Below, in pieces: positions 37,000 through 50,913 of a stretch of DNA of 64,000 bases. A program made the position numbers and the translations under genes. Each line of letters opens with the position of its first letter. Within the stretch, counting starts at the first letter, position 1. Source of the stretch: Octadecabacter sp. B2R22 (lineage in GTDB: Bacteria > Pseudomonadota > Alphaproteobacteria > Rhodobacterales > Rhodobacteraceae); assembly GCF_018861045.1 (NCBI RefSeq), contig NZ_JAHKQJ010000010.1, positions 372,001 through 436,000 on the forward strand. Direction: 5' to 3'. The notes under the pieces are model-generated. The model was not told the origin of the DNA. It worked only from the letters and a program-made list of their open reading frames with translations, and did no database searches.

Positions 37000-37923
37000 T
37001 TACTGGGCAAAAAGGGCACGGGACAATGCTGGAGGGAAAAATGTTGCACAGAGTGCAGCCCCCAAAGTCAGCACGCCGCGTTTAGGTGAATTGAAGAAGC
37101 CAGCGGGGCTTGTCAGAATGCCAAGCAATGCGAGATTGAGAGCGTGGACCCTGCTTTCCCCGAGGCGGAGCGCCCGCCGTGCAAGGTAGCGGTAATAAAC
37201 GGCATTGGCCGCGTCATCTGGGGTATGGCCAAAGGACAGCGCGGTGCGGATTGCCGCGTGGCGACCCAATTGCATGGCGATCAGATCGCTGGACAACCCG
37301 TTAAGGCTTGTACGGTAATACGTTTGCAGAGCGTCGACCCCGACAACTCTCGCACCTCCCCCAACGAGCCGGATCATCCAATCCAAGTCTTCGTTGTGGA
37401 CCATCTTTTCATCAAATCCGCCTGTGTCGCGGAACGCGCCTGCACGCACAGCCAAATTTGACATTGTGCAAACGGGATTTTCGGCGAGCAGCATTGGGAT
37501 TGTAAGGTCGATGTCAGGGACGGTTGAGCGGGTGCGGCTGTCCGTTGGCGTATCTTGGAAGAAAGCGATTTGGCCGTAGATGGCGTCCACGGTCGTGTCA
37601 CTGAACTCCGCTTTCAACTGGGCGAGTTTTTCAGGGGTCCAGATGTCGTCCGCGTCGCAGAACGCGAGCACATCGCCAACAGCCCAACTCAGTCCAATGG
37701 AGTTTCGCGCACAGCTTGGTCCATGACCGGTTGTGGAGCCAATCGTGATGCGAGAATCCATCGCCGCATAGCGTTCGATAACAGCGCGTGTTGCATCCGT
37801 AGACCCATCGTCAACACATATGGCTTCCCAACAGGTGTAAGTTTGTGCCCGGATCGCATCGAGAGTTTGAGGCAGAGACTCTTGCGCGTTGAAGCACGGG
37901 ATAATTACGGAAAATAGGGTCAT
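37000..37923 (-). CDS. Glycosyltransferase family 2 (second copy)
   Basis: 307 residues from ATG 37923, which overlaps the flippase stop (ATGA); the open frame to 38211 only re-reads the flippase gene. GT-A features: FSVIIPCFNAQESLPQTLDAIRAQTY, CVDDGSTD and FCDADDIWTPEKLAQL. It resembles the 36009-36983 product along its length. Sugar and acceptor are unknown. It is part of the exopolysaccharide assembly operon. Confidence 0.9.
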   Translation of the reverse strand: MTLFSVIIPCFNAQESLPQTLDAIRAQTYTCWEAICVDDGSTDATRAVIERYAAMDSRITIGSTTGHGPSCARNSIGLSWAVGDVLAFCDADDIWTPEKLAQLKAEFSDTTVDAIYGQIAFFQDTPTDSRTRSTVPDIDLTIPMLLAENPVCTMSNLAVRAGAFRDTGGFDEKMVHNEDLDWMIRLVGGGARVVGVDALQTYYRTSLNGLSSDLIAMQLGRHAAIRTALSFGHTPDDAANAVYYRYLARRALRLGESRVHALNLALLGILTSPAGFFNSPKRGVLTLGAALCATFFPPALSRALFAQ

Positions 37924-39158
37924 ATTGTTACCGATCTGTTTGGTAATTTGAACGTGGGATGCAAAATGAGAATGGCCGCGAGGAGCATCACAGTCGTCGA
38001 TGTGATGACGTAGCCAAGTGTCAGTGTCGGCAGGCCGAACGGACCAAGGACGAGAGCGTTTGCGATCACGACGGTGGCCAAGATTGCTGTCACCATAAGC
38101 TCGACATGGGCGCGATTGGTCGTGCGCAGCCAGCTTGCGGTGGTCGCCCAAAGGGTCGTCGGGATCGCAAGAAGGCACAGGAGTTGAACAAGGGTTTCGA
38201 TGCCGTCCCAACCGTCCCCCAACAGGATTGGAACGTAGATCGGGGCAAGCACGGTTTGTAAAACGACCAGCGGTGCTATCATTCCCACGCCAATGAGGAG
38301 GCTTTGGCGCAGGGTTACGAGGCGGTCGGTTGACTGGGAAAAGAGTGGGAACAGGACTGTGGAAAGGGCGGTTGTGAATGCGTTGGAAAGGCTAAGGCCC
38401 GCGTTGAAGGCCATAAAGTAAAGCCCAAGCGTTTCCGCCCCGAGCGTCGCACCAACCACAAGCTTGTCGGCTTGTAGGCGCATAACTTTGACCACTTCGA
38501 CGCCGAGCACGGCCCAACCGTAGTTAAGGAACGGGCGCAACGTTGCGCGTTGCTGGCTTTGGTTCGTCCACGGGTGCAGGCGACGCACAGCAATCAGCCA
38601 AATCGGCGCCGACAAAATGCGCGGCAAGACAAGCGCAATAGCTGTCGGCCAAATCAACACCAGAACAATCGAGATCAGGTTCGCACCAACAACCTGCGCG
38701 CCCGCAATAGCGGCGGTCTGCTTGAGCTGACCAGCGCGCATCGCCAGTGCGACCTGCACCAAACCCGCTGGCATAAACAGGTATTCAATTCCCATAAGAA
38801 GAACGAGGCCCGCAAGAAGCGATCCAGTCCCGTAGACATAAAGCGCTGCAGCGATGCCAGCTTGTGCGAGGAACAGGCCAACACACCAAACCCAAAAAAT
38901 GCGATGTGCCGTTGCGCAGGTTTCATCCAGATCTTCATCACGCGCCGCGATGATGCGCTGCCCCACGCCGTTTTCCGTCAGCGATTTCAGGATGTCACCC
39001 GCAGCCAGTGCGGCCGCCGCAACCCCGATCTGTGTTAGATCAAGCGTGCGCGCAACGGCTACGACAACCAAAAGGCGCGACGCCTTAGACGCCACTTCGG
39101 ACGCACCATAGGCGATCAAGTTCGTCGCAAAGGATTTGGAGTGGTTGGGCCGTATCAT
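37920..39158 (-). CDS. wzx: Polysaccharide flippase (Wzx/PST family)
   Basis: 412 residues from ATG 39158, with about 12 hydrophobic helices. The ATNLIAYGASEVASKASRLLVVVAVAR start and the LSNAFTTALSTVLFPLFSQ block are typical of the MOP/PST flippases that move undecaprenyl-linked repeat units across the inner membrane. It is the first gene of a minus-strand operon with three glycosyltransferases. The control region (39159-39359) is shared with the divergent wza and contains the CTATCC-N4-GGATAG box. Confidence 0.85.
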   Translation of the reverse strand: MIRPNHSKSFATNLIAYGASEVASKASRLLVVVAVARTLDLTQIGVAAAALAAGDILKSLTENGVGQRIIAARDEDLDETCATAHRIFWVWCVGLFLAQAGIAAALYVYGTGSLLAGLVLLMGIEYLFMPAGLVQVALAMRAGQLKQTAAIAGAQVVGANLISIVLVLIWPTAIALVLPRILSAPIWLIAVRRLHPWTNQSQQRATLRPFLNYGWAVLGVEVVKVMRLQADKLVVGATLGAETLGLYFMAFNAGLSLSNAFTTALSTVLFPLFSQSTDRLVTLRQSLLIGVGMIAPLVVLQTVLAPIYVPILLGDGWDGIETLVQLLCLLAIPTTLWATTASWLRTTNRAHVELMVTAILATVVIANALVLGPFGLPTLTLGYVITSTTVMLLAAILILHPTFKLPNRSVTI

Positions 39159-39256
39159 GGAACATCTTTCAATTTCGATGCCCCAACACTGGCGCACGAA
39201 ACACCCCGTTGTCAGCCGCGCGGACGGCCAGTTTCAGCCCCCAAAAGCATCGTGAT

Positions 39257-39272
39257 CTATCCGTCGGGATAG
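39257..39272. promoter_or_regulatory. EPS palindrome 1: CTATCC-N4-GGATAG between wzx and wza
   Basis: CTATCC GTCG GGATAG, perfect 6-bp arms, in the divergent control region about 88 bases before wza and 99 bases from wzx. Confidence 0.7.
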
Positions 39273-39359
39273 GCGAATTAGCCGTTGGCGCACTCGCCCC
39301 ATGGGGGTGCGCACAGCTATTGTATCTTGAAGTAAATCGTAAGTTTCTCGGAGGCCGAC

Positions 39360-40583
39360 ATGGCTAAATCGTTCACAACACTTAGCGTCATTGGCGCATT
39401 ACTAATGTCATCGGCCTGTGCCAGTTTTGATCCACCAGATAATATTGAACCCGTCGCCCAAGGGGGCGGATATCAAGCGCAATATCGCGAACCTCATGTG
39501 ACGCGTAATAACGCTGATTTCCTGCGCTCCGCCGAATTGAACGCGCAGAAATGTCTGCCCTATGGCGCGGGTGAAGGCGGTGAAGGGGCAGGAAAAGGTA
39601 GCACACTCGCAGCGATTTCCCTTCGCGGTGAGCGTCTATCACGCAACGATTTGCTCGACGTGCGCGTTGCTGATGACGATACGTTCAATGGCGACTACGT
39701 CATCTCACGCGATGGGATGTTGAAGTTGCCGTTTTTGCAACCGATTCCGGCGCAGGGTCGGTCAACCGATCAGGTCGAAGCGGATATTGCAAATGCATTA
39801 CTTGCTGAAGATTTCTACGGCACCGCACCGCGTATTTCTGTCCGCGCGTCTGACTTCGCATCTGTTACGGTCGGTGTGTCAGGCGCTGTGTTTGAGGCAC
39901 ACGCTGTCGAAATTGGCGGTGTTCGCGGCGATAGCGTAGATGGCCGTCGCCAAGACGCGATGGGAGCTTCGACCGAGGGGCGCAACCTGTCTGCAGCCTT
40001 GCGCGCGGCGGGAGGCGTGCGACCCGATGCTGATATTTCATCTGTTGAAGTGCGCCGTGGCTCAGACGTCTACCGCCTTGATATGCGAGGCGTATTTGAA
40101 GGCGAGAACAACGTCGATATCATGTTGCTGACCGGAGACGAGGTTTTCGTACCAAGCCGCCAGTGTTTCCAAGAAGACCTGATGCGCCCAAGCCCCATCA
40201 GCCCTCCCGGTGTCAGCTTGTTCCTCTCGAACCTCACCCAACCGGCACAAAACAACGCTGCGTCCGCCATAGGTCAAACCGTCCGCGAGGTGCCTTACGG
40301 GACGCGCTACATGCAGGCTGTAATTGACGCGAACTGTGTCGGCGGACCACGCAGCACCAGTGCTGACCGCTCATCCGTCCTGTTTTCACGCAACCCAACC
40401 AATGGCCTCTCGGTCGTGATTGAACGTGACATCGAGGATCTACTGCGCCGCGCGGATCGTGACGATTACGATCCTTATCTTCTGCCTGGTGACGCTTTAG
40501 CGTGTTACGACAGCACCATTACGAACATCGCCGAGATTGGCCGTGTGTTCGGGATCGTAGGAGCGGTTACGCTGGGTTTATGA
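39360..40583 (+). CDS. wza: Polysaccharide export lipoprotein, Wza/GumB family
   Basis: 407 residues with a lipoprotein signal (lipobox SSAC, C20). The Poly_export domain is at about 85-165 (RLSRNDLLDVRVADDDTFNGDYVISRDGMLKLPFLQPIPAQGRS contains its core; only the first part is needed for recognition), and an SLBB-type domain follows (LSAALRAAGGVRPDADISSVEVRR). It would form the outer-membrane exit channel for exopolysaccharide. GGAGG precedes the ATG. Its 3' end overlaps the convergent kinase gene by 17 bases. Confidence 0.9.
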   Translation: MAKSFTTLSVIGALLMSSACASFDPPDNIEPVAQGGGYQAQYREPHVTRNNADFLRSAELNAQKCLPYGAGEGGEGAGKGSTLAAISLRGERLSRNDLLDVRVADDDTFNGDYVISRDGMLKLPFLQPIPAQGRSTDQVEADIANALLAEDFYGTAPRISVRASDFASVTVGVSGAVFEAHAVEIGGVRGDSVDGRRQDAMGASTEGRNLSAALRAAGGVRPDADISSVEVRRGSDVYRLDMRGVFEGENNVDIMLLTGDEVFVPSRQCFQEDLMRPSPISPPGVSLFLSNLTQPAQNNAASAIGQTVREVPYGTRYMQAVIDANCVGGPRSTSADRSSVLFSRNPTNGLSVVIERDIEDLLRRADRDDYDPYLLPGDALACYDSTITNIAEIGRVFGIVGAVTLGL

Positions 40584-43068
40584 GTACAGCCTGTGTCAGG
40601 GCATCGCGAGTGTCCTGACACACGCCCAAAACGAAGGGCCGCATTGCATCAACGCTGTCTTTGTCGCCCGCCTTCGCGCTGTCTTCCAAAGACAAGAAGG
40701 CCTTTTTGACTGCCGTGGCACCAAAGAGAGACGCGGAGCCTGCAGTCTTATGGGCAAATGCTGCAATCTCATCCAAGTCTGCACCAGGGGAAAGCCACTG
40801 CGAAACCGCCGTTAATTCAGTGTCGAACTTTGCCAGCAAAGGGGTGAAATTATCGGCACCAACCGTCTCACGGGTTTCGGTAAGATGCGGGATGTCCAAG
40901 AGTTGTGTTTGGTCGGCATTCTGAACGACGGCCTCGCCTGACATAACAGCCCGCAGTGCGGACTTTGTAAGTGGCTTTGTTAAAACCGCATCCATTCCAT
41001 TTGCCAAGAAGTCGGCTTGTTCATTGGCAAGCGCATTCGCGGTGAGGGCGACAATACGCGTTTTCGCTGACGCTCCATTGCCAGATCGAATTTTCGCTGT
41101 CGCTGCACGCCCATCCATGACGGGCATCGAAATATCCATCAAGATCAGGTCAAATTTTTCACCGTGAGCTCTATCGACCCCCTGTTGGCCGTCAAAAGCC
41201 TCGGTGACATCGTGTCCATCAGCGATCAGCATGTTGCGCACTACGAAACGATTGATCTCGTTGTCTTCAACAATCAGCACTCGCTTTGGCGCACCAACGA
41301 GTGAGATAGCGTCTACTGTGGTTTCTTGTGCAGCGGGTTCAGCGACTGTCGCTGGAACTTCAACGAGGAAAGTGCTCCCGTCCTCTTGCGTGCTTTCAAC
41401 AGTGATATTCCCGTCCAAGGCTTCTACAAATCGGCGAACAATCCCCAACCCTAGTCCTGTTCCACTGACATCGCGGTCATAAGATGTGTCGCCGGTGGTG
41501 AAATCGTCAAAGATACGTTCCAATAGGTCCGGCGCAATTCCGATGCCCGTGTCTTCAACGACAAAGTGCAATTGGTTATCCTGCCATGAGGCCGTGATTG
41601 AGACGCGCCCGTTCTTAGTGAACTTCACCGCATTGCCGATCAGGTTCATCAAGATGTGTTGAAGCCGTTCAGAATCCCCGTTGATCCAATGCTGGGCGGG
41701 GCCGTCCCAGCCCCAGTCTAACGTCGTATCTTGCGCTGCTGCCATGCCGCTTTGATTGTCGACGATATCTTGCAGCAAGGCTGAGATATTCAACGGTTCA
41801 AAGCGCACGCTGACTTTGCCGCTGTCATACCGCGCAATGTCTAACACATCGGAGACATGGCTCATCAAAAGCCGACCGGAAGTCTCCATATTGCGCAGGA
41901 ACGTGTCCTGTTTGGCGCTCAGCGGCGTGTCCCGCAGGAGGCTCATGTTGCCTAGAAGGCCGTTAAGTGGCGTTCTGATTTCGTGGCTCATCGTTGCCAG
42001 AAAATCCGAGCGGCTTTTCTCTCCGGCGATGGCTTTGTCACGTGCCTCAATCAGCTCCAGCTCATCTGCGACGCGCTGCGAAACGTCCCGCAGGAACGCG
42101 ATGAAGATTTCGCCTTCGTCGGTTGTTGCGGATTGGATGGCAAGCTCCACAGGGAACGTAGATCCGTCCGCATGCTTTGCCTCAAGCTGCACGCGGCCTT
42201 TGCCAACCACGCGTTTTTCACCCCCTTGACGCATCCGTTCCATTCCAGCGTTATGGGCGTCGACCATGTGATCGGGAATGATGACCTTTCCGATTTCCCT
42301 TCCCATCACGTTTTGCCCGATGTGCCCAAATATTTGTTCTGCAGCGGAATTAAAGCCGGTAATTCTACCCTTAGCGTCGCTTACGATAACGCCGTCTAAA
42401 GACGTGTTCATGATCGTGTTAATGCGAGTTGCTGCTTGAACTTGTTCACGTTCCCGCTGACTGATCTGCCCGTTAAGCCGAACGAGATAGGCAACCCCCA
42501 ATCCAAGCGCGGTGATAAGGGCGACAAGTGCCAAAGCAAGCTGGGTCATCGTACGGGTCACTGTTTGACGTTGCGCGTCTGCTTGTTGTGCAAATAGGTT
42601 TAGCCCTGCGTTTGATAGACCACGAACATCTGGCCGAGCATCCTGGGCTATCCCTGAAAGCAGGGGTAGGTTTCGTGTTAGTTCGATATCGTCAACGTCG
42701 ACAAGTTGTACCGCGTCACTCAGGAAGGTTTCGATTTGCGACAAGCTGGCTTCGAAAGCTTCGTCCGCACGCAGGACCTCAAAGACTTTTGCCTGACGGA
42801 TCGTTGTGATGCGGCTGTAAAAAACGTCAAATCGTTGTCGAACTGCCGCTGGGTTCACACCAACACGCAACCGGCTGTTGAATTCCTGAAATTCAACTTC
42901 AGTCTGTGACAAAGCCCATTGCACGTTATCGGATTGCGCAGTGCTTTGCGCCTCAATCTCTTGGGTCACGTTCCATGTCAGGATAGCGATAGATGCTAAT
43001 GCCAGAAGGCCGGCCAGCACTACAAGAGTGCGGCCAGCCCTTTGACGCCGGTAAGTTTTATTTGGCAC
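40567..43068 (-). CDS. Hybrid sensor histidine kinase with REC and Hpt domains
   Basis: 833 residues, start GTG 43068. It has an N-terminal helix (about 14-35), a periplasmic sensor of about 140 residues, a second helix (about 176-198), PAS (about 220-335, NTSLDGVIVSDAKGRITGFN), HisKA with MSHEIRTPLNG (H about 362), HATPase (GTGLGLGIV), REC (MDISMPVMDG, D about 645) and a C-terminal Hpt (AHKTAGSASLFG, H about 773). All phosphorelay residues are present. It probably passes phosphate to the NarL-type regulator at 46268. The SUOX-fold gene at 43107 lies just upstream in the same operon and may be its periplasmic partner. Confidence 0.93.
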   Translation of the reverse strand: MPNKTYRRQRAGRTLVVLAGLLALASIAILTWNVTQEIEAQSTAQSDNVQWALSQTEVEFQEFNSRLRVGVNPAAVRQRFDVFYSRITTIRQAKVFEVLRADEAFEASLSQIETFLSDAVQLVDVDDIELTRNLPLLSGIAQDARPDVRGLSNAGLNLFAQQADAQRQTVTRTMTQLALALVALITALGLGVAYLVRLNGQISQREREQVQAATRINTIMNTSLDGVIVSDAKGRITGFNSAAEQIFGHIGQNVMGREIGKVIIPDHMVDAHNAGMERMRQGGEKRVVGKGRVQLEAKHADGSTFPVELAIQSATTDEGEIFIAFLRDVSQRVADELELIEARDKAIAGEKSRSDFLATMSHEIRTPLNGLLGNMSLLRDTPLSAKQDTFLRNMETSGRLLMSHVSDVLDIARYDSGKVSVRFEPLNISALLQDIVDNQSGMAAAQDTTLDWGWDGPAQHWINGDSERLQHILMNLIGNAVKFTKNGRVSITASWQDNQLHFVVEDTGIGIAPDLLERIFDDFTTGDTSYDRDVSGTGLGLGIVRRFVEALDGNITVESTQEDGSTFLVEVPATVAEPAAQETTVDAISLVGAPKRVLIVEDNEINRFVVRNMLIADGHDVTEAFDGQQGVDRAHGEKFDLILMDISMPVMDGRAATAKIRSGNGASAKTRIVALTANALANEQADFLANGMDAVLTKPLTKSALRAVMSGEAVVQNADQTQLLDIPHLTETRETVGADNFTPLLAKFDTELTAVSQWLSPGADLDEIAAFAHKTAGSASLFGATAVKKAFLSLEDSAKAGDKDSVDAMRPFVLGVCQDTRDALTQAVLINPA

Positions 43069-43106
43069 GATTAGGTTCCCATGTCGTTTCCGGCTTTCTT
43101 TAAGGG

Positions 43107-43622
43107 TTACTCAACAACTTCAATCCTGTCGAGTTGCCAGATACTACGCGAGTAAATGACCTCGGTGCGGTAACTTGATGATGCATCGTAGGGATAGATG
43201 ATCCAAAGGGGACCCTTGTCACGGACCGTCATTCTTTCGCCGTTCATCACAAAAGCAATGATTGGTCCGTTTTCCACTGCGTCACTGACTGGTATTTCGA
43301 CGGTGTAATCGTTGATGGCCGTGGCAAATAAAGTACCGTCTTCAATGCCCAATGAGTCGATGAATGACTTGAGCGAGACGCCCTCGAACGTCTGCACCCC
43401 ATCGGTCCAGATTGTTGAGGTATCGATACGATCAAGCCCAAGCGCGCTGAGAGATTCATAATCAAATTCTCGGTTAAGTGCTTCATCAGAAGACTGTACG
43501 GTCCCAGTCACCGTGAGGATAACGTCCCCATTGGGGGGGGGGACGTCATCTGCACGGGCCGCACCCGCCATGACCAAAGCCACTACTGCTGCGGATGCGA
43601 AAGCGAAAACTCGAGTAAACAT
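43107..43622 (-). CDS. Periplasmic molybdopterin-oxidoreductase-fold (SUOX-like) protein
   Basis: 171 residues with a signal peptide (1-24, ending ARA-D). The rest resembles the oxidoreductase molybdopterin-binding (SUOX) fold: GVSLKSFIDSLGI, YTVEIPVSDAVENGPIIAFVMNGERM, and GPLWIIYPYD. It is much shorter than real sulfite-oxidase-like enzymes and no ligand cysteine to molybdenum is visible, so it may be a ligand-sensing protein rather than an enzyme. Immediately after the signal peptide lies a run of ten C (coding strand). It is co-directional with the kinase (38 bases). Confidence 0.75.
   Translation of the reverse strand: MFTRVFAFASAAVVALVMAGAARADDVPPPNGDVILTVTGTVQSSDEALNREFDYESLSALGLDRIDTSTIWTDGVQTFEGVSLKSFIDSLGIEDGTLFATAINDYTVEIPVSDAVENGPIIAFVMNGERMTVRDKGPLWIIYPYDASSSYRTEVIYSRSIWQLDRIEVVE
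43533..43542 (-). repeat. Homopolymer tract of ten C in the coding strand
   Basis: G(10) on the plus strand, encoding V-P-P-P right after the signal peptide of the SUOX-like protein. A tract of this length can slip; a gain or loss of one base would shut off the protein. Confidence 0.85.
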
Positions 43623-43697
43623 GTCAAATCCTTTGGATGGTTAAAGGATGTTTGACACAGCTTGCGTCGTTTCGCTTGTGGGTATCGGGATAGGCAC

Positions 43698-43713
43698 CTA
43701 TCCGAACGGATAG
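43698..43713. promoter_or_regulatory. EPS palindrome 2: CTATCC-N4-GGATAG before the SUOX/kinase operon
   Basis: CTATCC GAAC GGATAG, perfect arms and embedded in an 18-bp palindrome, about 76 bases before the SUOX-like start. A further GGATAGG half-site precedes it at 43688-43694. Confidence 0.7.
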
Positions 43714-43723
43714 GTTTCGCCTC

Positions 43724-44611
43724 CTATGCCGTCATTTGTTCAGGAAGTTTGCGTGTTTCCATAAAGGCTGCGAAGTCTTTTCCCAGATCTACACGGTCCA
43801 GTGCGAAAGCCGCTGTCGCTTGGACGAAGCCCTGAATTGAACCGCAATCAAAGCGCTCGCCGGCAAACTCGTAGCCTGTCACGCTTGCGTTCGACAGATC
43901 GGCGTTGATCGCGTCAGTTAATTGAAGTTCACCACCGACGCCGGGGCCAAGGTCGGCGAGACGCGCGAAAATGGATGGCTGCAAGATATACCGCCCGACC
44001 ACGGCTTGCGTCGAAGGCGCGATGTCAGGGCGAGGTTTTTCAACCATGCCGCGGGCATGAAAGACGCGGCCTTGCCTACGTTTTACGTTAAGAACACCAT
44101 AAGATGACGTCGCTGCGCGCGGAACGTCCATGGTTGCAACCATATGCCCGCCGACGTTTCGGTGTGCCTCAACCATTTGCGACAGCGCCCCTATTGGCCC
44201 TTTGATGACGTCATCTGGCAAAAGCACGGCAAAGGGATCATCCCCGATCAGGTATTTGGCCTGTCTGACGGCATGACCAAGCCCCAACGCGCGGCCTTGG
44301 CGCAAGATCGTTAGGGCACCCTCACGCATGTGGGAAGGTTCAAGCGCGGCAAGCGCGTCGGTCTTACCTTTGGCCTTCAGTGTCATTTCCAGGGCGGCGG
44401 CGGTGTCAAAATAGTCCTCAAGCGCGCCTTTGCCTGCTGCGGACACGAAGATGAACTCTTCAATTCCTGCCGCGCGGGCCTCGTCCACTGCATATTGGAT
44501 CAGGGGGCGGTCAATAAGCGGCAACATTTCCTTTGGAACGGATTTGGTAGCTGGCAGGAAACGTGTGCCCATTCCAGCGACAGGGAAGACGGCTTTGCGA
44601 ATACGTGACAT
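43724..44611 (-). CDS. galU: UTP-glucose-1-phosphate uridylyltransferase
   Basis: 295 residues from ATG 44611. Nucleotidyltransferase signature FPVAGMGTRFLPATKSVPKEMLPL (about 8-31), FVEKPRP-like MVEKPRPD and the LPDDVIKG strand are diagnostic. It makes UDP-glucose, a precursor for the exopolysaccharide and other glycans. The frame extends upstream to 44782 but that part re-reads the neighbouring gene. It is probably in one transcript with the WecG/sugar-transferase gene (23 bases apart). Confidence 0.95.
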   Translation of the reverse strand: MSRIRKAVFPVAGMGTRFLPATKSVPKEMLPLIDRPLIQYAVDEARAAGIEEFIFVSAAGKGALEDYFDTAAALEMTLKAKGKTDALAALEPSHMREGALTILRQGRALGLGHAVRQAKYLIGDDPFAVLLPDDVIKGPIGALSQMVEAHRNVGGHMVATMDVPRAATSSYGVLNVKRRQGRVFHARGMVEKPRPDIAPSTQAVVGRYILQPSIFARLADLGPGVGGELQLTDAINADLSNASVTGYEFAGERFDCGSIQGFVQATAAFALDRVDLGKDFAAFMETRKLPEQMTA

Positions 44612-44634
44612 GAACTTAAACCTTTCAATTTGTA

Positions 44635-46014
44635 CTAGTGTGCGCCGCGGCCGGAAATCACGGCGCGGAATGTCATTGCTATTAGAATGAGATCGAGGAG
44701 GACTGTTCGGGACGTCGCATACGCCAGATCCATGTCGACCATTTTGTCGAAACCCACGTTGGCGCGACCCGATACCTGCCACACGCCTGTGATCCCAGGT
44801 TTGACTGCCAAACGGCCGTAAGCGCGTTTTGGGTAAGCTGCCACTTCGACAGGGAGCGCGGGGCGTGGACCAACAACCGACATCTCGCCGCGCAATACGT
44901 TCAGAAACTGCGGAAGTTCATCAATCGAGAAGCGCCGAATGAAGCGGCCAACCCGTGTGATGCGCGGATCGGATTTAGATTTGAAGCAGATACCAGCGCG
45001 ATCAGACGTCGCAAGCAGGTCTGCACGTCGGTTTTCCGCATCAACACACATCGAGCGGAACTTCAGCATCGGAAACTCCCGGCCATCCTTGCCGACACGG
45101 TATTGTTTGAAGAACACAGGCCCACGGCTTTCGGCCTTGATCGCAATGGCGGTCGCGGCAAGCAGAGGCGCGAGGAGGATCGCCGCTGTGCCAGCAACCG
45201 CCACATCCAACCCGCGCCGAATGATCGAGGTCATCGTCATTTGGCGGGCAGCATTGCGCCCTGCGCGGGTAAGAAAAGTAGCGTTCCCAATAAGGTAACG
45301 TTTCGCTAAGCGCCGTGGCTCAAGTCCTAAACGCCACAACCACTCACCACCTATCCGACGCAGCGCACGTGGTGCTCGGCTGACATTACCGGCAAGAAAA
45401 TCAAAACATGCGCCGACCCCCATTGTCAGATCTGCATGGATGCGATGCGCATTGCGATGCAGCCAAAGATCTTGCATTGGCACACCCAAAGCGACCAGAA
45501 CGATATCGGCCTCACAGGCATTCATATAGGCGACAACAGCGTCTTCATCTTTCGCTTGGTCGTAACCATCTAGCGTGCCGACGATCCGCAGACCCGGGTT
45601 TTTAATCGTCAGGGCGCGGGCCGCAGCATCAGCCGTTCCTGGTTTGCCGCCAAATAAGAACACCGATTTCCCGTGTCTTGCAGCTTGTTCCATGAGAGCA
45701 GGAACCAAGTCGGTTCCGTTGAGGTTTGCAGTCAGTTTCTGGCCGGACATTTTCGCGGCCATGGAAACGCCTGATCCATCTGGCAGCAGCAAATCCGCAG
45801 ATTGAATGGCCGCGGCATACGTGTGATCGGACGCCATTACGTTAAAGCAATGCGCGTTCATATACGCGACGCGGCGTCGCCCTGCGGACAACAAGGCGGC
45901 AACAGTTTCTGTTATTGCTGCATCCACTAATGAGACACGAAGACTCGGGATGTAGGTTTGCGGCAGGGCCTGAACTGGTGTCAGTGTGCCGGTGAATGTG
46001 ATGTGTTTGGTCAT
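44635..46014 (-). CDS. Fusion of WecG/TagA/CpsF glycosyltransferase and initiating sugar transferase
   Basis: About 459 residues from ATG 46014 (an ATG at 46041 adds nine residues). The N-terminal half is a WecG/TagA/CpsF transferase: LPDGSGVSMAAKMSG, then LFGGKPGTA and GVGACFDFLAGNVSRAPR. After about residue 230 comes an undecaprenyl-phosphate sugar transferase of the WcaJ/ExoY type: one membrane helix, KFRSM, DELPQFLNVLRGEMSVVGPRP, and KPGITGVWQVSGR. One protein could thus start the repeat unit and add the next sugar. It is divergent from the response regulator at 46268. Confidence 0.92.
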   Translation of the reverse strand: MTKHITFTGTLTPVQALPQTYIPSLRVSLVDAAITETVAALLSAGRRRVAYMNAHCFNVMASDHTYAAAIQSADLLLPDGSGVSMAAKMSGQKLTANLNGTDLVPALMEQAARHGKSVFLFGGKPGTADAAARALTIKNPGLRIVGTLDGYDQAKDEDAVVAYMNACEADIVLVALGVPMQDLWLHRNAHRIHADLTMGVGACFDFLAGNVSRAPRALRRIGGEWLWRLGLEPRRLAKRYLIGNATFLTRAGRNAARQMTMTSIIRRGLDVAVAGTAAILLAPLLAATAIAIKAESRGPVFFKQYRVGKDGREFPMLKFRSMCVDAENRRADLLATSDRAGICFKSKSDPRITRVGRFIRRFSIDELPQFLNVLRGEMSVVGPRPALPVEVAAYPKRAYGRLAVKPGITGVWQVSGRANVGFDKMVDMDLAYATSRTVLLDLILIAMTFRAVISGRGAH

Positions 46015-46162
46015 TTGAGCAGCTTTCGTTGAACAATTCATTGCCTAATGCATCAACGATTTCAGTCCCTTGTCGCAACGGAACGGTCGGACAGGTGCGT
46101 GCCTCTTTCGGACTCAGTTTGAACCTGACGGAGGTGTTTCCACCCATTTGAGGCTGCGGAAC

Positions 46163-46178
46163 CTATCCGTTTGGGTTA
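46163..46178. promoter_or_regulatory. EPS palindrome 3 (degenerate): CTATCC-N4-GGGTTA
   Basis: CTATCC GTTT GGGTTA, one perfect and one weak arm, midway between the divergent fusion gene and the response regulator. It has the same spacing as the three perfect sites. Confidence 0.45.
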
Positions 46179-46267
46179 ACCGACTAGCTCTTTTCCCCCC
46201 GCAGTTTGCCTTTGTTTGGCCGTAAAACCGCGTATGAAGGGAGTGACCATTCCCAAGGAACCAGACC

Positions 46268-46882
46268 ATGAGAATACTGATTGCTGACGACCACGACCTG
46301 TTGCGCGACACGCTTGTCATGTTCCTTGAGGGGCAGGGCGCGATGGAAACCGCGAGTGTCGGTACCTTGCAGGACGCGATGGATCGTATCAAAGCAGATG
46401 ACGCCTATGATCTGGTGCTGCTCGATTACAATATGCCAGGCATGAACGGTCTGGATGGGTTGCGCACCGTTTTGGAGATGGAGCAAACCGACCGCGTCGC
46501 TCTGATTTCCGGTGAAGCGACCAAGCAGATTGCGGAAGATGCGCTTGAGGCAGGAGCAGCAGGTTTCGTACCCAAGTCGCTTCCGGCAAAATCATTGGTG
46601 AATGCGGTGAAGTTCATGGCAATGGGTGAGCAATATGCGCCACTTGATTTCATGACCGCCGTTGAAGAGGTGCCACAGAACGCACTCGCCGATAAATTGA
46701 CATCACGGGAACTGCAGGTCCTCGAAGGCCTGACACAGGGCAAATCCAACAAAGAAATCGCGCGGGATTTGGACATAACCGAACCAACCGTGAAACTCCA
46801 CGTAAAGACGCTCTATCGCAAAGTTGGGGCTGCGAACCGGACACAAGCCGCGCTTATCGCGCGCGAAGCGGGCCTGTTCTGA
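46268..46882 (+). CDS. NarL/FixJ family response regulator of the EPS locus
   Basis: 204 residues. The receiver domain has D7-D8, phosphorylation site D53 (LLDYNMPGMNG) and K103-like switch residues; the LuxR-type helix-turn-helix is LTSRELQVLEGLTQGKSNKEIARDLDITEPTVKLHVKTLYRKVG (about 143-186). Such proteins bind palindromes as dimers. It lies within the EPS locus with CTATCC-N4-GGATAG boxes on both sides, and the hybrid kinase/Hpt at 40567 is the only kinase in the window, so the two probably form a phosphorelay controlling capsule or biofilm genes. Confidence 0.92.
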   Translation: MRILIADDHDLLRDTLVMFLEGQGAMETASVGTLQDAMDRIKADDAYDLVLLDYNMPGMNGLDGLRTVLEMEQTDRVALISGEATKQIAEDALEAGAAGFVPKSLPAKSLVNAVKFMAMGEQYAPLDFMTAVEEVPQNALADKLTSRELQVLEGLTQGKSNKEIARDLDITEPTVKLHVKTLYRKVGAANRTQAALIAREAGLF

Positions 46883-46883
46883 A

Positions 46884-46899
46884 CTATCCATTCGGATAG
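46884..46899. promoter_or_regulatory. EPS palindrome 4: CTATCC-N4-GGATAG before wzz
   Basis: CTATCC ATTC GGATAG, perfect arms, one base after the regulator stop and 90 bases before the wzz ATG. Confidence 0.7.
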
Positions 46900-46989: not shown

Positions 46990-48432
46990 ATGAATACGAC
47001 ATTCAAAAACAGTATTGCCGAACTTTCCCGCCTCTCAAGGCGCGGAATGGGGCGTCGCATCATGATGGGTGGGCGCTTGGGGGATCTCAAACGTATGCCA
47101 CGTTATGCGGCGACCGCTATACTGGGTGCCACGCTTATCTGGGCGCCTTTACTCGGCTACCTCAAAACCGCCCCCCTCACTTACAGATCAACGACCTCGC
47201 TGATTTTACCGGGGTCTGGGGCATCTGCGTCCATGAACCTTAACGGGATTGGTCAAGCGTCCTCTTTCGCCAACTCTGCCTTTGCCAGTAACGCGGTTAG
47301 CCCGACGGAGACATATAAACGTTTGTTGGGCGCTGATCGCATTGTGGATGCTGCGGCGCAGTCATTAGGGCTTACTCGTGAAGAAATTGGCGCGCCGCGC
47401 ATTCAGTTGGTCGATCAAACAAGTCTGATCCATGTTGAGATGATGGGCAGTTCACCCATGGATTCACAAGCGCGCGGTGACGCGTTGCTACAAGCATTTT
47501 TCGTTGAGCTGGATGCCTTGCGAGATGACGAGGCAAGCACGCGCCAAGATAGCGGTCTTCAGGCGATCGACGAGTTCCGCACATCCGTCGCGCAAACACG
47601 CAGCCAGATCACACTGTTGCAAGAGCAAAGCGGTTTGATGTCGGTGGATCAATATGACCGTCTGGTCGACCGCCACCTTGAACTTGAGGCCGTAATCTTA
47701 GATCGCATTGCAGGTCTAAGTGAACGGAGCGCAAGTGTAGCGGCCCTTGAGACACAGCTTGGCTTGGACGCAGAAGCGGCGGCAGCCACGTTGAAGCTGT
47801 TTGCGGACGGAGGGTATCTGGCACTTCTCGAAGAAGCGGCCAGCCACGAGGTCGCGCTCGCTGACGCCAATGCGCGTTTCGGGTCGCGTCACCCTCGCGT
47901 AGAGGAGGCGCGTAGTGCTCGCGACGAAGCGGCATCGATCGCATTAGAACTGGCAATTGCTGTGACGGGCCTGGACGTGCAAACCTTATCCGCACTTGAT
48001 TTGGCCCCACAAGGCGCACGCGCCGAATTGCTCTCCGATCTTGTTCAAAAACAGGTTGAGCTGAGCGCGGCAGAGCAGGAATTGGCCACGCTACGGATGC
48101 AGTTTACTGAAGGTCAGGCAGAGATTGGTCGCCTTTCGCGAGCTGCGTCAGATTTGCAGGACCTTGAACGGGACTTCTCAGTTGCAGAGGCGGTTTTTGC
48201 CTCCGCAATTGCACGCGCTGAAACGGGAAAGTCGGACGTCTACGCATCCTATCCACTTGTTCAGGTCCTTGAAAATCCATCCTTGCCCAATCGCCCCTCG
48301 TCGCCCAACCGAAAACTGGCGTTTCTTGCGGGTGTCGCAGCAACATTGATGTTGTTGTTCGGGCTATCGCTTGGCTGGATCAGACTGGCACTCATTTCGC
48401 GGCTGACGAGCAAACCAGAGACAGATGCATGA
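46990..48432 (+). CDS. wzz: Exopolysaccharide chain-length determinant (Wzz/GumC-like)
   Basis: 480 residues from ATG 46990 (AAGGAG upstream). A membrane helix at about 38-58, a long periplasmic helical region rich in coiled coil (about 180-420), and a C-terminal helix preceded by the proline-rich NPSLPNRPSSPNRK segment, the arrangement of polysaccharide co-polymerases. No tyrosine-kinase domain is attached. It sets chain length together with the polymerase at 48429, whose start overlaps this stop (ATGA). Confidence 0.88.
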   Translation: MNTTFKNSIAELSRLSRRGMGRRIMMGGRLGDLKRMPRYAATAILGATLIWAPLLGYLKTAPLTYRSTTSLILPGSGASASMNLNGIGQASSFANSAFASNAVSPTETYKRLLGADRIVDAAAQSLGLTREEIGAPRIQLVDQTSLIHVEMMGSSPMDSQARGDALLQAFFVELDALRDDEASTRQDSGLQAIDEFRTSVAQTRSQITLLQEQSGLMSVDQYDRLVDRHLELEAVILDRIAGLSERSASVAALETQLGLDAEAAAATLKLFADGGYLALLEEAASHEVALADANARFGSRHPRVEEARSARDEAASIALELAIAVTGLDVQTLSALDLAPQGARAELLSDLVQKQVELSAAEQELATLRMQFTEGQAEIGRLSRAASDLQDLERDFSVAEAVFASAIARAETGKSDVYASYPLVQVLENPSLPNRPSSPNRKLAFLAGVAATLMLLFGLSLGWIRLALISRLTSKPETDA

Positions 48433-49682
48433 CGGATCTCAACCCCGTCGAGCGGTTTATCTATCGCATGCTTGTGTGGACATGGCCGCTATATGGTCTT
48501 GGCGCGCTTTATGTGGTTGGGCCGGTTATCGCTTGGCTGCTTGGAGGGCTGGCGGTTCTGGTTCTGTATCTTGGACCGGCAGTGCGTCCTGACATGCGCG
48601 CGACGGGTGCAATTCCGCCCGTTGTCTGGGCATGGTTTGCGGGGATGTTTGTGCTGTTGGTGGCGCTTTGGATCGGCCATCTGGACTGGTCGCTTGGCCT
48701 AAAGCAGACAATCAAATCATCAATTGGCTGGGCAAAGGGTTGGGCGCTTTTGGCACTCTTTCCGTTAATCGGTGCAGTTCTGCCGATCCGAAGATCTGTG
48801 TTGGTGCGTGGACAATGCGTCATTGGGTTATGGACGCTGATCCTCGCGCCGATCATGTTCGTTGCGCCCTACATTGGTTTACCCGAACGGATATTCACAT
48901 CCCCCCTTCAGGCGATTGGTGGTCCAGGACCTGAATACTTCTCGGTGTACTTTTTCACGTGGGACCCAGGGAGCTGGGCCCCGCGATGGCAGTTCTATGC
49001 GCCGTGGTCGCCATTTGCCGCCTTGCTTGGCGTTGTGATGGTGCTGTTTGCTCTTGAAGAGAAATGTATCAAATGGCGCAGCATCGGGATCGCCGCTGGA
49101 ACATTGATGATTTTGGCATCCAAGTCCCGCATGGGCCTTGTCGGGATCGTCGCCTGTACTATCGGGCCACGCATGATGCCACTTTTGTTGCGCAGCTGGG
49201 CGTGGCACATCGTGGCCGGATTGACAGCATCTTTGGCAATGTTCGGCGCAACTTTTGCGTCGACTGCATCTGACGCAATTGCTGCATTCAAAGGCGCGCG
49301 TGCAGACAGCACGCGTGTTCGCGAGGCTCTGCAACGCATCGCATCTGAAAGGTGGCAAAACGAGGCTTTTTGGTTCGGCCATGGCACACTTCAACCGGGG
49401 AGCCACGCCGTCGAGTACATGCTCATCGGCAGCCACCACACTTGGTTCGGTTTGCTATTCGTTAAGGGTCTTGTGGGATTGTTGGCCTTGTTGGTTCCCT
49501 TCGTGTGGCAAACCTTGCTGGCCCTAATTGATGCGGCGCGAGGCCCAAGGGGATACTTACCGCTTGGGATTATGATGACGCTGACGCTGCTGTCTTTTGG
49601 CGAGAATATTGAGATCGAAGCCTACCTTTTGTGGCCAGGCCTTATAGTGCTGGGCATTCACGCAAGGGAATGCGCGTCTTAG
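48429..49682 (+). CDS. O-antigen/exopolysaccharide polymerase-like membrane protein (Wzy-like)
   Basis: 417 residues with about ten hydrophobic helices and a large periplasmic loop. A conserved-looking PWSPFAALLGV...SKSRMGLVG pair and a GSHHTWFGLLFVKGLVGLLAL end segment resemble the Wzy/O-antigen ligase group. It would join repeat units on the periplasmic side of the inner membrane. Polymerase versus ligase cannot be told from sequence, but the operon with wzz favours polymerase. It is the last gene of the locus. Confidence 0.8.
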   Translation: MTDLNPVERFIYRMLVWTWPLYGLGALYVVGPVIAWLLGGLAVLVLYLGPAVRPDMRATGAIPPVVWAWFAGMFVLLVALWIGHLDWSLGLKQTIKSSIGWAKGWALLALFPLIGAVLPIRRSVLVRGQCVIGLWTLILAPIMFVAPYIGLPERIFTSPLQAIGGPGPEYFSVYFFTWDPGSWAPRWQFYAPWSPFAALLGVVMVLFALEEKCIKWRSIGIAAGTLMILASKSRMGLVGIVACTIGPRMMPLLLRSWAWHIVAGLTASLAMFGATFASTASDAIAAFKGARADSTRVREALQRIASERWQNEAFWFGHGTLQPGSHAVEYMLIGSHHTWFGLLFVKGLVGLLALLVPFVWQTLLALIDAARGPRGYLPLGIMMTLTLLSFGENIEIEAYLLWPGLIVLGIHARECAS

Positions 49683-50217: not shown

Positions 50218-50913
50218 GTGGGCGTGGCAGATATCGACTTGAAATCGTGTAACGTTCAGGACGCAGTTCAGCGGATAGCGGATTTCTATCAGGTTGATTA
50301 CGTGACCCTCCACCTCTTTCGTTCAGGCGAGGATGCGCAGAACAAGCCTTATGTTCGCACCAACTACCCCGATGCTTGGGTGAGCCACTATTTACTGAAT
50401 GACTACGTGCGGATTGATCCTGTCTTACAAATGGCGGAGCGGACCGCTGGGCCTTTCTGCTGGTCCACTATTTCTCCCCAAGGCGTTCAACTGGATATGA
50501 TGGAGCAAACCGCCAAATATGGCCTGGGCCAGACGGGTTTTAGCGTCCGTCATGTCGATGCGATTGGCCGCCGCAGTGTGCTGTCTTTCAACGCACATGA
50601 TGCGAAAGGCGGGGACACTTGGGAGCCATATCTGGCAGAGATGCGAGAGGGGCTCATTCATTTGGCACACGAAATTCATCTCATGGCCTTAGCCGAGATA
50701 TATGTGGACGGTGAGACGCTTCCCCAGCTTTCGCCGCGCGAGATCGAATGCCTAAAATGGACGGCTCAGGGCAAAGCGCATACTGACATCGCGATTATCC
50801 TCGATCTTTCGGATCACACCGTACGCGGTTATCTGAAAGATGCGCGGATGAAATTGGACTGCGTCACGCTTGCGCAAGCCGTTTCCAAAGCCTCGACGCT
50901 TGGGTTGATTTAA
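50218..50913 (+). CDS. LuxR-type regulator with autoinducer-binding domain (solo)
   Basis: About 231 residues; start GTG 50218 or GTG 50224 (AGGTGG precedes the latter). The N-terminal autoinducer-binding domain keeps the signature W (AWVSHY), Y, D-P (RIDPVL) and W (FCWSTI) residues in their usual order. The C-terminal HTH is LSPREIECLKWTAQGKAHTDIAIILDLSDHTVRGYLKDARMKLD. It would bind an acyl-homoserine lactone or related signal in the cytosol and regulate transcription. No luxI synthase is found in this window, so it may be a solo receptor. Confidence 0.88.
   Translation: MGVADIDLKSCNVQDAVQRIADFYQVDYVTLHLFRSGEDAQNKPYVRTNYPDAWVSHYLLNDYVRIDPVLQMAERTAGPFCWSTISPQGVQLDMMEQTAKYGLGQTGFSVRHVDAIGRRSVLSFNAHDAKGGDTWEPYLAEMREGLIHLAHEIHLMALAEIYVDGETLPQLSPREIECLKWTAQGKAHTDIAIILDLSDHTVRGYLKDARMKLDCVTLAQAVSKASTLGLI

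Follow-up and report, generated by a model that had tools for sequence, protein, structure and literature searches.

A conserved palindrome as the probable operator of a PruR-DTB-type phosphorelay at an exopolysaccharide locus of Octadecabacter

Kinases of the PruR-DTB type have been described as a class of regulators that putatively respond to pterins; PruR-DTB pairs were defined, and the domains of the kinases given, in a 2026 review in which Ruegeria pomeroyi is drawn as an example (PMC13259868). In the main text of that review the terms 'response regulator' and 'exopolysaccharide' each occur zero times. We analysed a stretch of 64,000 nucleotides from Octadecabacter sp. B2R22 (contig NZ_JAHKQJ010000010.1, positions 372,001 to 436,000), referred to here as the window and used for all coordinates, which holds an exopolysaccharide (EPS) locus together with a PruR-like gene, a hybrid kinase and a response regulator. 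A preliminary description of this DNA had pointed to the palindrome CTATCC-N4-GGATAG in four control regions of the locus and proposed that this box allows a phosphorelay (hybrid kinase with Hpt to NarL-type regulator) to govern the locus that encodes it. It had also noted that it did not know the motif as a described one, which agrees with our survey of the literature on the motif strings, the locus and the system, where we recognised no description of the box or of the regulator's targets; the primary PruR papers (PMC11194511, PMC4488946) lie outside this comparison.

Genes of the locus and proteins of the proposed phosphorelay

The genes considered here are the following.

37920 to 39197, minus strand: Wzx-type flippase (Pfam Polysacc_synt), first of the leftward glycosyltransferase genes
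39360 to 40583, plus strand: Wza-type export protein (Pfam Poly_export)
40567 to 43068, minus strand: hybrid kinase of DTB type, with an N-terminal WX7E motif, PAS, HisKA, HATPase, REC and Hpt (Pfam; motif residues)
43107 to 43622, minus strand: PruR-like periplasmic protein of a pterin-binding-type family (Foldseek and phmmer)
44635 to 46041, minus strand: WecG and Bac_transf fusion (Pfam, NCBIfam), followed by a GalU-like gene (ORF 43724-44782)
46268 to 46882, plus strand: response regulator of NarL/FixJ type, with REC and GerE HTH domains (Pfam), the proposed binder of the box
46990 to 48432, plus strand: Wzz-type chain-length protein (TIGR03007, E 3.5e-10, below cut-off; gene order kept in relatives)
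48429 to 49682: membrane protein after wzz, a putative Wzy by its position
50218 to 50913: LuxR protein of AHL type (Autoind_bind and GerE), 3.3 kb from box 3

The protein encoded at 48429-49682 had no match in Pfam or NCBIfam, yet is conserved in related loci. Relatives of the Wza-type protein (E ≤ 1e-40) were present in 25 of 295 genomes of the family, and these 25 comprised 22 genomes with a response regulator at least 60 % identical to that of the window, two with a more distant regulator beside the locus and one with none.

The relatives of the response regulator in the PDB were NarL, VraR, DesR and DevR, with NarL nearest, and the HTH segment TVKLHVK aligned with TVKVHVK of NarL. The protein is nonetheless not a NarL equivalog, scoring 113 bits against an NCBIfam cut-off of 250. 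The phosphorylatable residue D53 was invariant in the 16 sequences aligned. The protein at 43107-43622 had been labelled 'SUOX-like' in the preliminary description; it has a SUOX fold of PruR type, and the best matches placed the protein with PruR and not with the sulfite oxidases. The structural model (pLDDT 88.8) returned PruR structures as all seven of its best Foldseek matches, headed by PruR 7kos (E 3.7e-16, TMt 0.90), with sulfite oxidases following from E 3.6e-06, and phmmer agreed on PruR (E 1.7e-32). Pfam assigns the label Oxidored_molyb; the mature domain contains no Cys in 85 of 87 loci and the protein is therefore unlikely to be a molybdenum enzyme. Across the 87 loci the pterin-site residues specified in the review (PMC13259868) were strongly conserved (Asn in 86, Tyr in 85 with Phe in 2, and Trp in 87), and the PruR-like gene was followed by the kinase gene in 80.

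Conservation of the kinase was assessed in 82 kinases of more than 600 residues that adjoin a PruR-like gene. The residues of a relay were present almost throughout (HisKA His in 82, REC Asp in 81, Hpt His in 79), as were those of the WX7E motif, with Trp in 79 and the second position occupied by Glu in 66 or Asp in 14. The strict WX7E pattern was found in 65 of the 82, compared with 6 of 16 kinases without a PruR neighbour and 10 of 98 in a control stretch. The top NCBIfam match of the window's kinase was TorS, at 345 bits and below the equivalog cut-off of 676.5, and its core was of the TorS/BaeS-like kind. Judged by these features the kinase fits the PruR-DTB description, and a pterin would be its presumptive signal.

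Copies of the box, their conservation and placement

A pattern search of the window located three perfect copies of the palindrome, together with the weaker fourth copy of the preliminary description and an additional half-site.

39257 to 39272: box 1, CTATCCGTCGGGATAG, in the divergent wzx/wza gap, centred 95.5 bases ahead of the ATG of wza
43688 to 43693, minus strand: third half-site GGATAG, reading CTATCC on the PruR strand, at a 10-base pitch from box 2 on its promoter side
43698 to 43713: box 2, CTATCCGAACGGATAG (CCTATCC..GGATAGG), upstream of the PruR-kinase operon and centred 83.5 bases ahead of the ATG of the PruR-like gene
46163 to 46178: weak box, CTATCCGTTTGGGTTA, in the gap between wecG and the response regulator gene, centre 97.5 bases before the regulator ATG
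46884 to 46899: box 3, CTATCCATTCGGATAG, in the gap from the regulator stop codon to wzz, centred 98.5 bases ahead of the ATG of wzz (46990)

The four control regions are those originally named: box 1 lies between wzx and wza, which point away from it on either side, box 2 precedes the leftward PruR-kinase pair, the weak box separates the diverging wecG and regulator genes, and box 3 follows the regulator gene and precedes wzz. The three perfect copies were the sole exact copies in the genome of 3,317,300 bases, all inside the EPS locus, compared with none for the reversed control pattern and an expectation of approximately 0.19 per genome from the base composition of the window. The statement of the preliminary description that the window holds no others was also correct, as no other position in the whole window had fewer than three mismatches. 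With up to two mismatches allowed, the genome contained 65 matches to the box and 73 to the reversed control, a background level at which further targets in this genome cannot be named. With up to three, the window contained 17 matches against 13.4 expected. The copy at 46163-46178 has three mismatches and, taken alone, is at chance level.

Related loci were examined as two sets. The first comprised stretches centred on the regulator gene from 60 relatives (regulator identity 56-89 %) plus the window, 61 stretches and 1.11 Mb in all, and contained 43 exact and 47 one-mismatch boxes, compared with 0 and 2 for the reversed control. No box with one mismatch or fewer was present in 19 of the 61, and 14 of these 19 had a regulator 60-77 % identical. 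The second comprised 17 loci with the full gene set, from 16 genera and including the window, each with the four gaps described above. A box with at most one mismatch was present in the wzx-wza gap of 12 loci, before the PruR-like gene in 13, in the wecG-regulator gap in 6 and in the regulator-wzz gap in 13, amounting to 44 of 68 gaps, and 60 of 68 gaps had a box with at most two mismatches. The best of 59 permuted half-site palindromes reached 1 gap and 4 gaps of 68 at these two thresholds. In two of the 17 loci (L078 and L081) the best box of every gap had two to three mismatches. The wecG-regulator gap scored lowest of the four across the 17 loci, indicating that the weak copy of the window marks the position of a generally weaker site; here 13 of 17 loci had a box with up to two mismatches, and the counterpart from the same genus (L076) shares the degenerate right half. 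The fourth copy is accordingly at chance level as a sequence, and its position is one where related loci often carry a box.

A search that presupposed no motif gave the same palindrome. The stretch of 300 bases preceding the regulator gene was taken from 120 loci (one of 121 was excluded as lying outside both subtrees), divided into subtrees of 47 and 73, and all 6-mer half-sites with spacers of 0-12 were counted in it. CTATCC with a spacer of 4 ranked first in both, in 19 of 47 and 13 of 73 loci, with five shuffles reaching at most 3 and 5, and CTATAC with a spacer of 4 ranked next in the second subtree (12 loci). At the level of the family, the exact box was present in 71 of 295 genomes and the reversed control in 7. 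In 285 genomes from other families in the same class, the exact box was present in 20 genomes (23 sites) and the control in 9 (10 sites), so that the box runs at about twice the control outside the family and the reversed control is lenient.

The box was placed at a near-fixed distance from the start codons of its presumed targets, with median distances from box centre to start codon of 87 bases for the PruR-like gene (n=41), 94.5 for wza (n=14) and 99 for wzz (n=16); the distance to the regulator start was more variable (median 165.5, n=32). When 71 anchored sites were aligned toward the gene, CC at +17/+18 was present in 86 % and 77 %, and a putative third half-site on the promoter side is hence partly conserved. 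A -10-like hexamer peaked at +50-53, in 19 of 64 sites that lie 75-125 bases from a start (95 % limit of shuffles, 11), which would put the box near -60. The 14 wzx-wza sites also displayed a conserved G at -39 (100 %), -38 (93 %) and -18 (93 %), possibly reflecting more half-sites toward wzx.

These data bear on two other readings of the palindrome. Were it an RNA hairpin or intrinsic terminator, the position of box 3, which starts one base past the regulator stop codon, would be natural, as would the location of some sites far from regulator genes between gene 3' ends. This is hardly credible given the near-fixed distance to start codons, the presence of a run of four T within 12 bases after only 4 of 103 sites, and the character of the substitutions, as pairing is lost at 36 of the 56 deviating stem positions and retained at 20. 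A second reading keeps the same regulator and assigns it the opposite sign, repression or autorepression of the locus. The sign of regulation is unreadable from sequence, and one box can serve two promoters in close divergent pairs; the -10-like hexamer, however, is not covered by the box, whose centre is some 50 bases farther upstream, and an Rcs box has a comparable position, 59 bases ahead of a mapped start (PMC4325325). We regard repression as unlikely. The distance to start codons and the -10-like peak fit an activator, and suggest that the regulator would act as one.

Association of the box with the response regulator

If the box is the operator of the regulator, the two should be found together, and this was examined in 44 genomes whose regulator reaches 60 % identity or more, using an 18-base form of the site with at most one mismatch. 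Out of 100 sites, 58 had one of 48 regulator genes no more than 9 kb away, a density of 65 per Mb vs 0.24 per Mb elsewhere. The density of the 42 far sites was itself above that of the reversed control (0.028 per Mb; 5 in 179 Mb), and four of the 42 belonged to EPS loci that do not share a contig with the regulator. We examined 20 far-site stretches, two of which hold such unlinked EPS loci, and in 13 others we found no shared theme among the 20 proteins beside the sites: six had no family, and the rest included Hint_2, LysR, DUF4244, UPF0029, DUF7507 and methyltransferases. Further neighbours of far sites were MarR, HlyD, an M32 peptidase, a hydrolase, gyrase A, enolase and PNPase. Without a common theme, some far sites may be chance occurrences or other targets. 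In two stretches (L315 and L318) the far boxes lie close to a Hint-domain gene and a DUF7507 gene, which are possible extra targets.

The unlinked EPS loci were informative as to what the box accompanies. In four genomes (G006, G113, G219 and G238) the EPS locus and the regulator were on different contigs, at least about 80 kb apart by contig ends. All four loci had a box with at most one mismatch between wzx and wza, and those of G006 and G113 had a second between wecG and wzz. A distant EPS-like locus in a genome where no regulator relative was found (G054) had no box with two mismatches or fewer in the 4-kb stretch searched. Conversely, boxes precede regulator genes accompanied by a PruR-like gene and kinase in stretches with no EPS homologue (for example L093, L112 and L117). 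Neither a local repeat nor a mere part of the EPS genes would be expected to show this distribution. Outside EPS loci, too, the box marks PruR-kinase and regulator pairs, a feature absent from the preliminary description. In 59 close divergent pairs, with the PruR-like gene at most 750 bases from the regulator gene and in groups of 14 and 45, the shared gap had a box with one mismatch or fewer in 8 of 14 pairs and 13 of 45 pairs, compared with means of 0.04 and 0.02, and at most 4 and 1, for 150 permuted palindromes. Allowing CTAT[CA]C half-sites raised the counts to 10 of 14 and 26 of 45.

The boxes without EPS neighbours also bear on the reading of the palindrome as the lux box of an AHL-type LuxR, such as that encoded at 50218-50913. 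The form CTNNCC-N4-GGNNAG is similar to the boxes of LasR and CviR. Such a gene is indeed found 3.3 kb from box 3, and the HTH domains of CviR and RhlR are related to that of the response regulator. The window's LuxR had a homologue in none of 60 related stretches (tblastn, E 1e-10), most of which contain boxes, and this, with the boxes that accompany only the PruR-like gene, kinase and regulator, renders a lux box very improbable.

A different, unlinked regulator might bind the box and also control the response regulator gene; in favour of this reading, the link of box and regulator is comparative only and 19 of the 61 regulator stretches lack a box with one mismatch or fewer. The occurrence of the box nonetheless followed the regulator: the exact box was present in 30 of 44 genomes at or above 60 % regulator identity vs 41 of 251 others (Fisher p 1e-11), and among 80 named loci, a set that partly overlaps the genome set, a site was present in 26 of 31 with identity of at least 60 %, 7 of 22 at 45-59 % and 1 of 27 at 44 % or below. 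Furthermore, one locus (L086, genome G005) displayed an altered box, CTACCC-N4-GGGTAG, in three promoter gaps with 0-1 mismatch, and its regulator departs in the recognition segment, reading EAT vs EPT in the other 46 of the subtree, the sole A-for-P there. We consider an unlinked regulator improbable. In the second subtree, where CTATAC half-sites are commoner, the HTH segment is mostly EVT and often LCRK. Single HTH residues (A or V in place of P in the helix) did not predict the half-site type, and covariation of HTH and box is accordingly only suggestive. Two records, L226 (Oceanobacillus) and L247 (Exiguobacterium), carry a regulator of Rhodobacteraceae type (59 % and 48 %) and look mislabelled.

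Proposed mechanism and comparison with known systems

Taken together, the uniqueness of the box in its genome, its linkage to the regulator, its presence in the same gaps of other genera and in unlinked EPS loci, and the conserved relay residues lend comparative support to the phosphorelay first suggested for this locus. We think it highly probable that the box is the operator of the regulator in a PruR-DTB phosphorelay that would control the EPS locus and its own genes, with binding inferred from these comparisons. The PruR-like periplasmic protein would report to the DTB-type hybrid kinase, and phosphate would pass from the HisKA His to the REC Asp, the Hpt His and finally the regulator Asp. 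The two half-sites, spaced by about one turn of the helix, would each hold a regulator subunit, and the half-site on the promoter side would often be contacted by a third. For wza, pruR-kinase and wzz-wzy, the boxes occupied by the phosphorylated regulator would precede the likely transcription start by roughly 60 bases. The divergent wzx and wecG-galU units are probably served from these boxes as well, as is the regulator's own gene, whose box is poor in the Octadecabacter genome. The effect is most likely activation, such that the EPS locus and its control genes would form one small regulon.

A broader form of this proposal, which we hold to be about as likely as not, would make the box a common operator of PruR-DTB phosphorelays across the Rhodobacteraceae: pterins outside the cell or in the periplasm would directly set the transcription of a surface polysaccharide by way of a dedicated response regulator, without need for c-di-GMP, and operator and HTH would diverge together in paralogues (half-sites CTATCC and CTATAC). 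If the phosphorelay works as proposed, direct control of transcription would link pterin sensing with a polysaccharide of capsule or biofilm type, and the motif would be available for finding further targets.

NarL, the nearest structural relative, recognizes a heptamer box with 7-2-7 spacing and a consensus of its own. The regulator described here has a related HTH and a box that differs in both sequence and spacing; a search with the heptamer consensus gave 2 matches in the window vs 1.7 expected, i.e. chance level. The Rcs phosphorelay of enteric bacteria is alike in plan, with a relay leading to a NarL/FixJ-type regulator, polysaccharide or biofilm genes as output and a box about 60 bases upstream of a start (PMC4325325), and it differs in its input protein. 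The RcsAB box itself (TaAGaatatTCcta) had no match in the window with three mismatches or fewer, and the kinase scored 251 bits against the RcsC equivalog cut-off of 920. PruR-DcpA of Agrobacterium, as summarized in PMC13259868, shares a PruR-type input and a surface polysaccharide output; DcpA, however, makes or breaks c-di-GMP, whereas the locus studied here combines a kinase with a transcription factor. The PruR-DTB pairs drawn in the same review (PMC13259868) are alike in that a PruR-type gene precedes a kinase whose periplasmic domain has the WX7E motif and whose other domains run PAS-HisKA-HATPase-REC. To these features the Octadecabacter locus adds an Hpt domain, a divergent NarL-type regulator, a candidate DNA operator and a probable EPS target. 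The box and the divergent regulator would thereby give the PruR-DTB class a testable output, consisting of an operator, the promoters it would serve and a phenotype in EPS.
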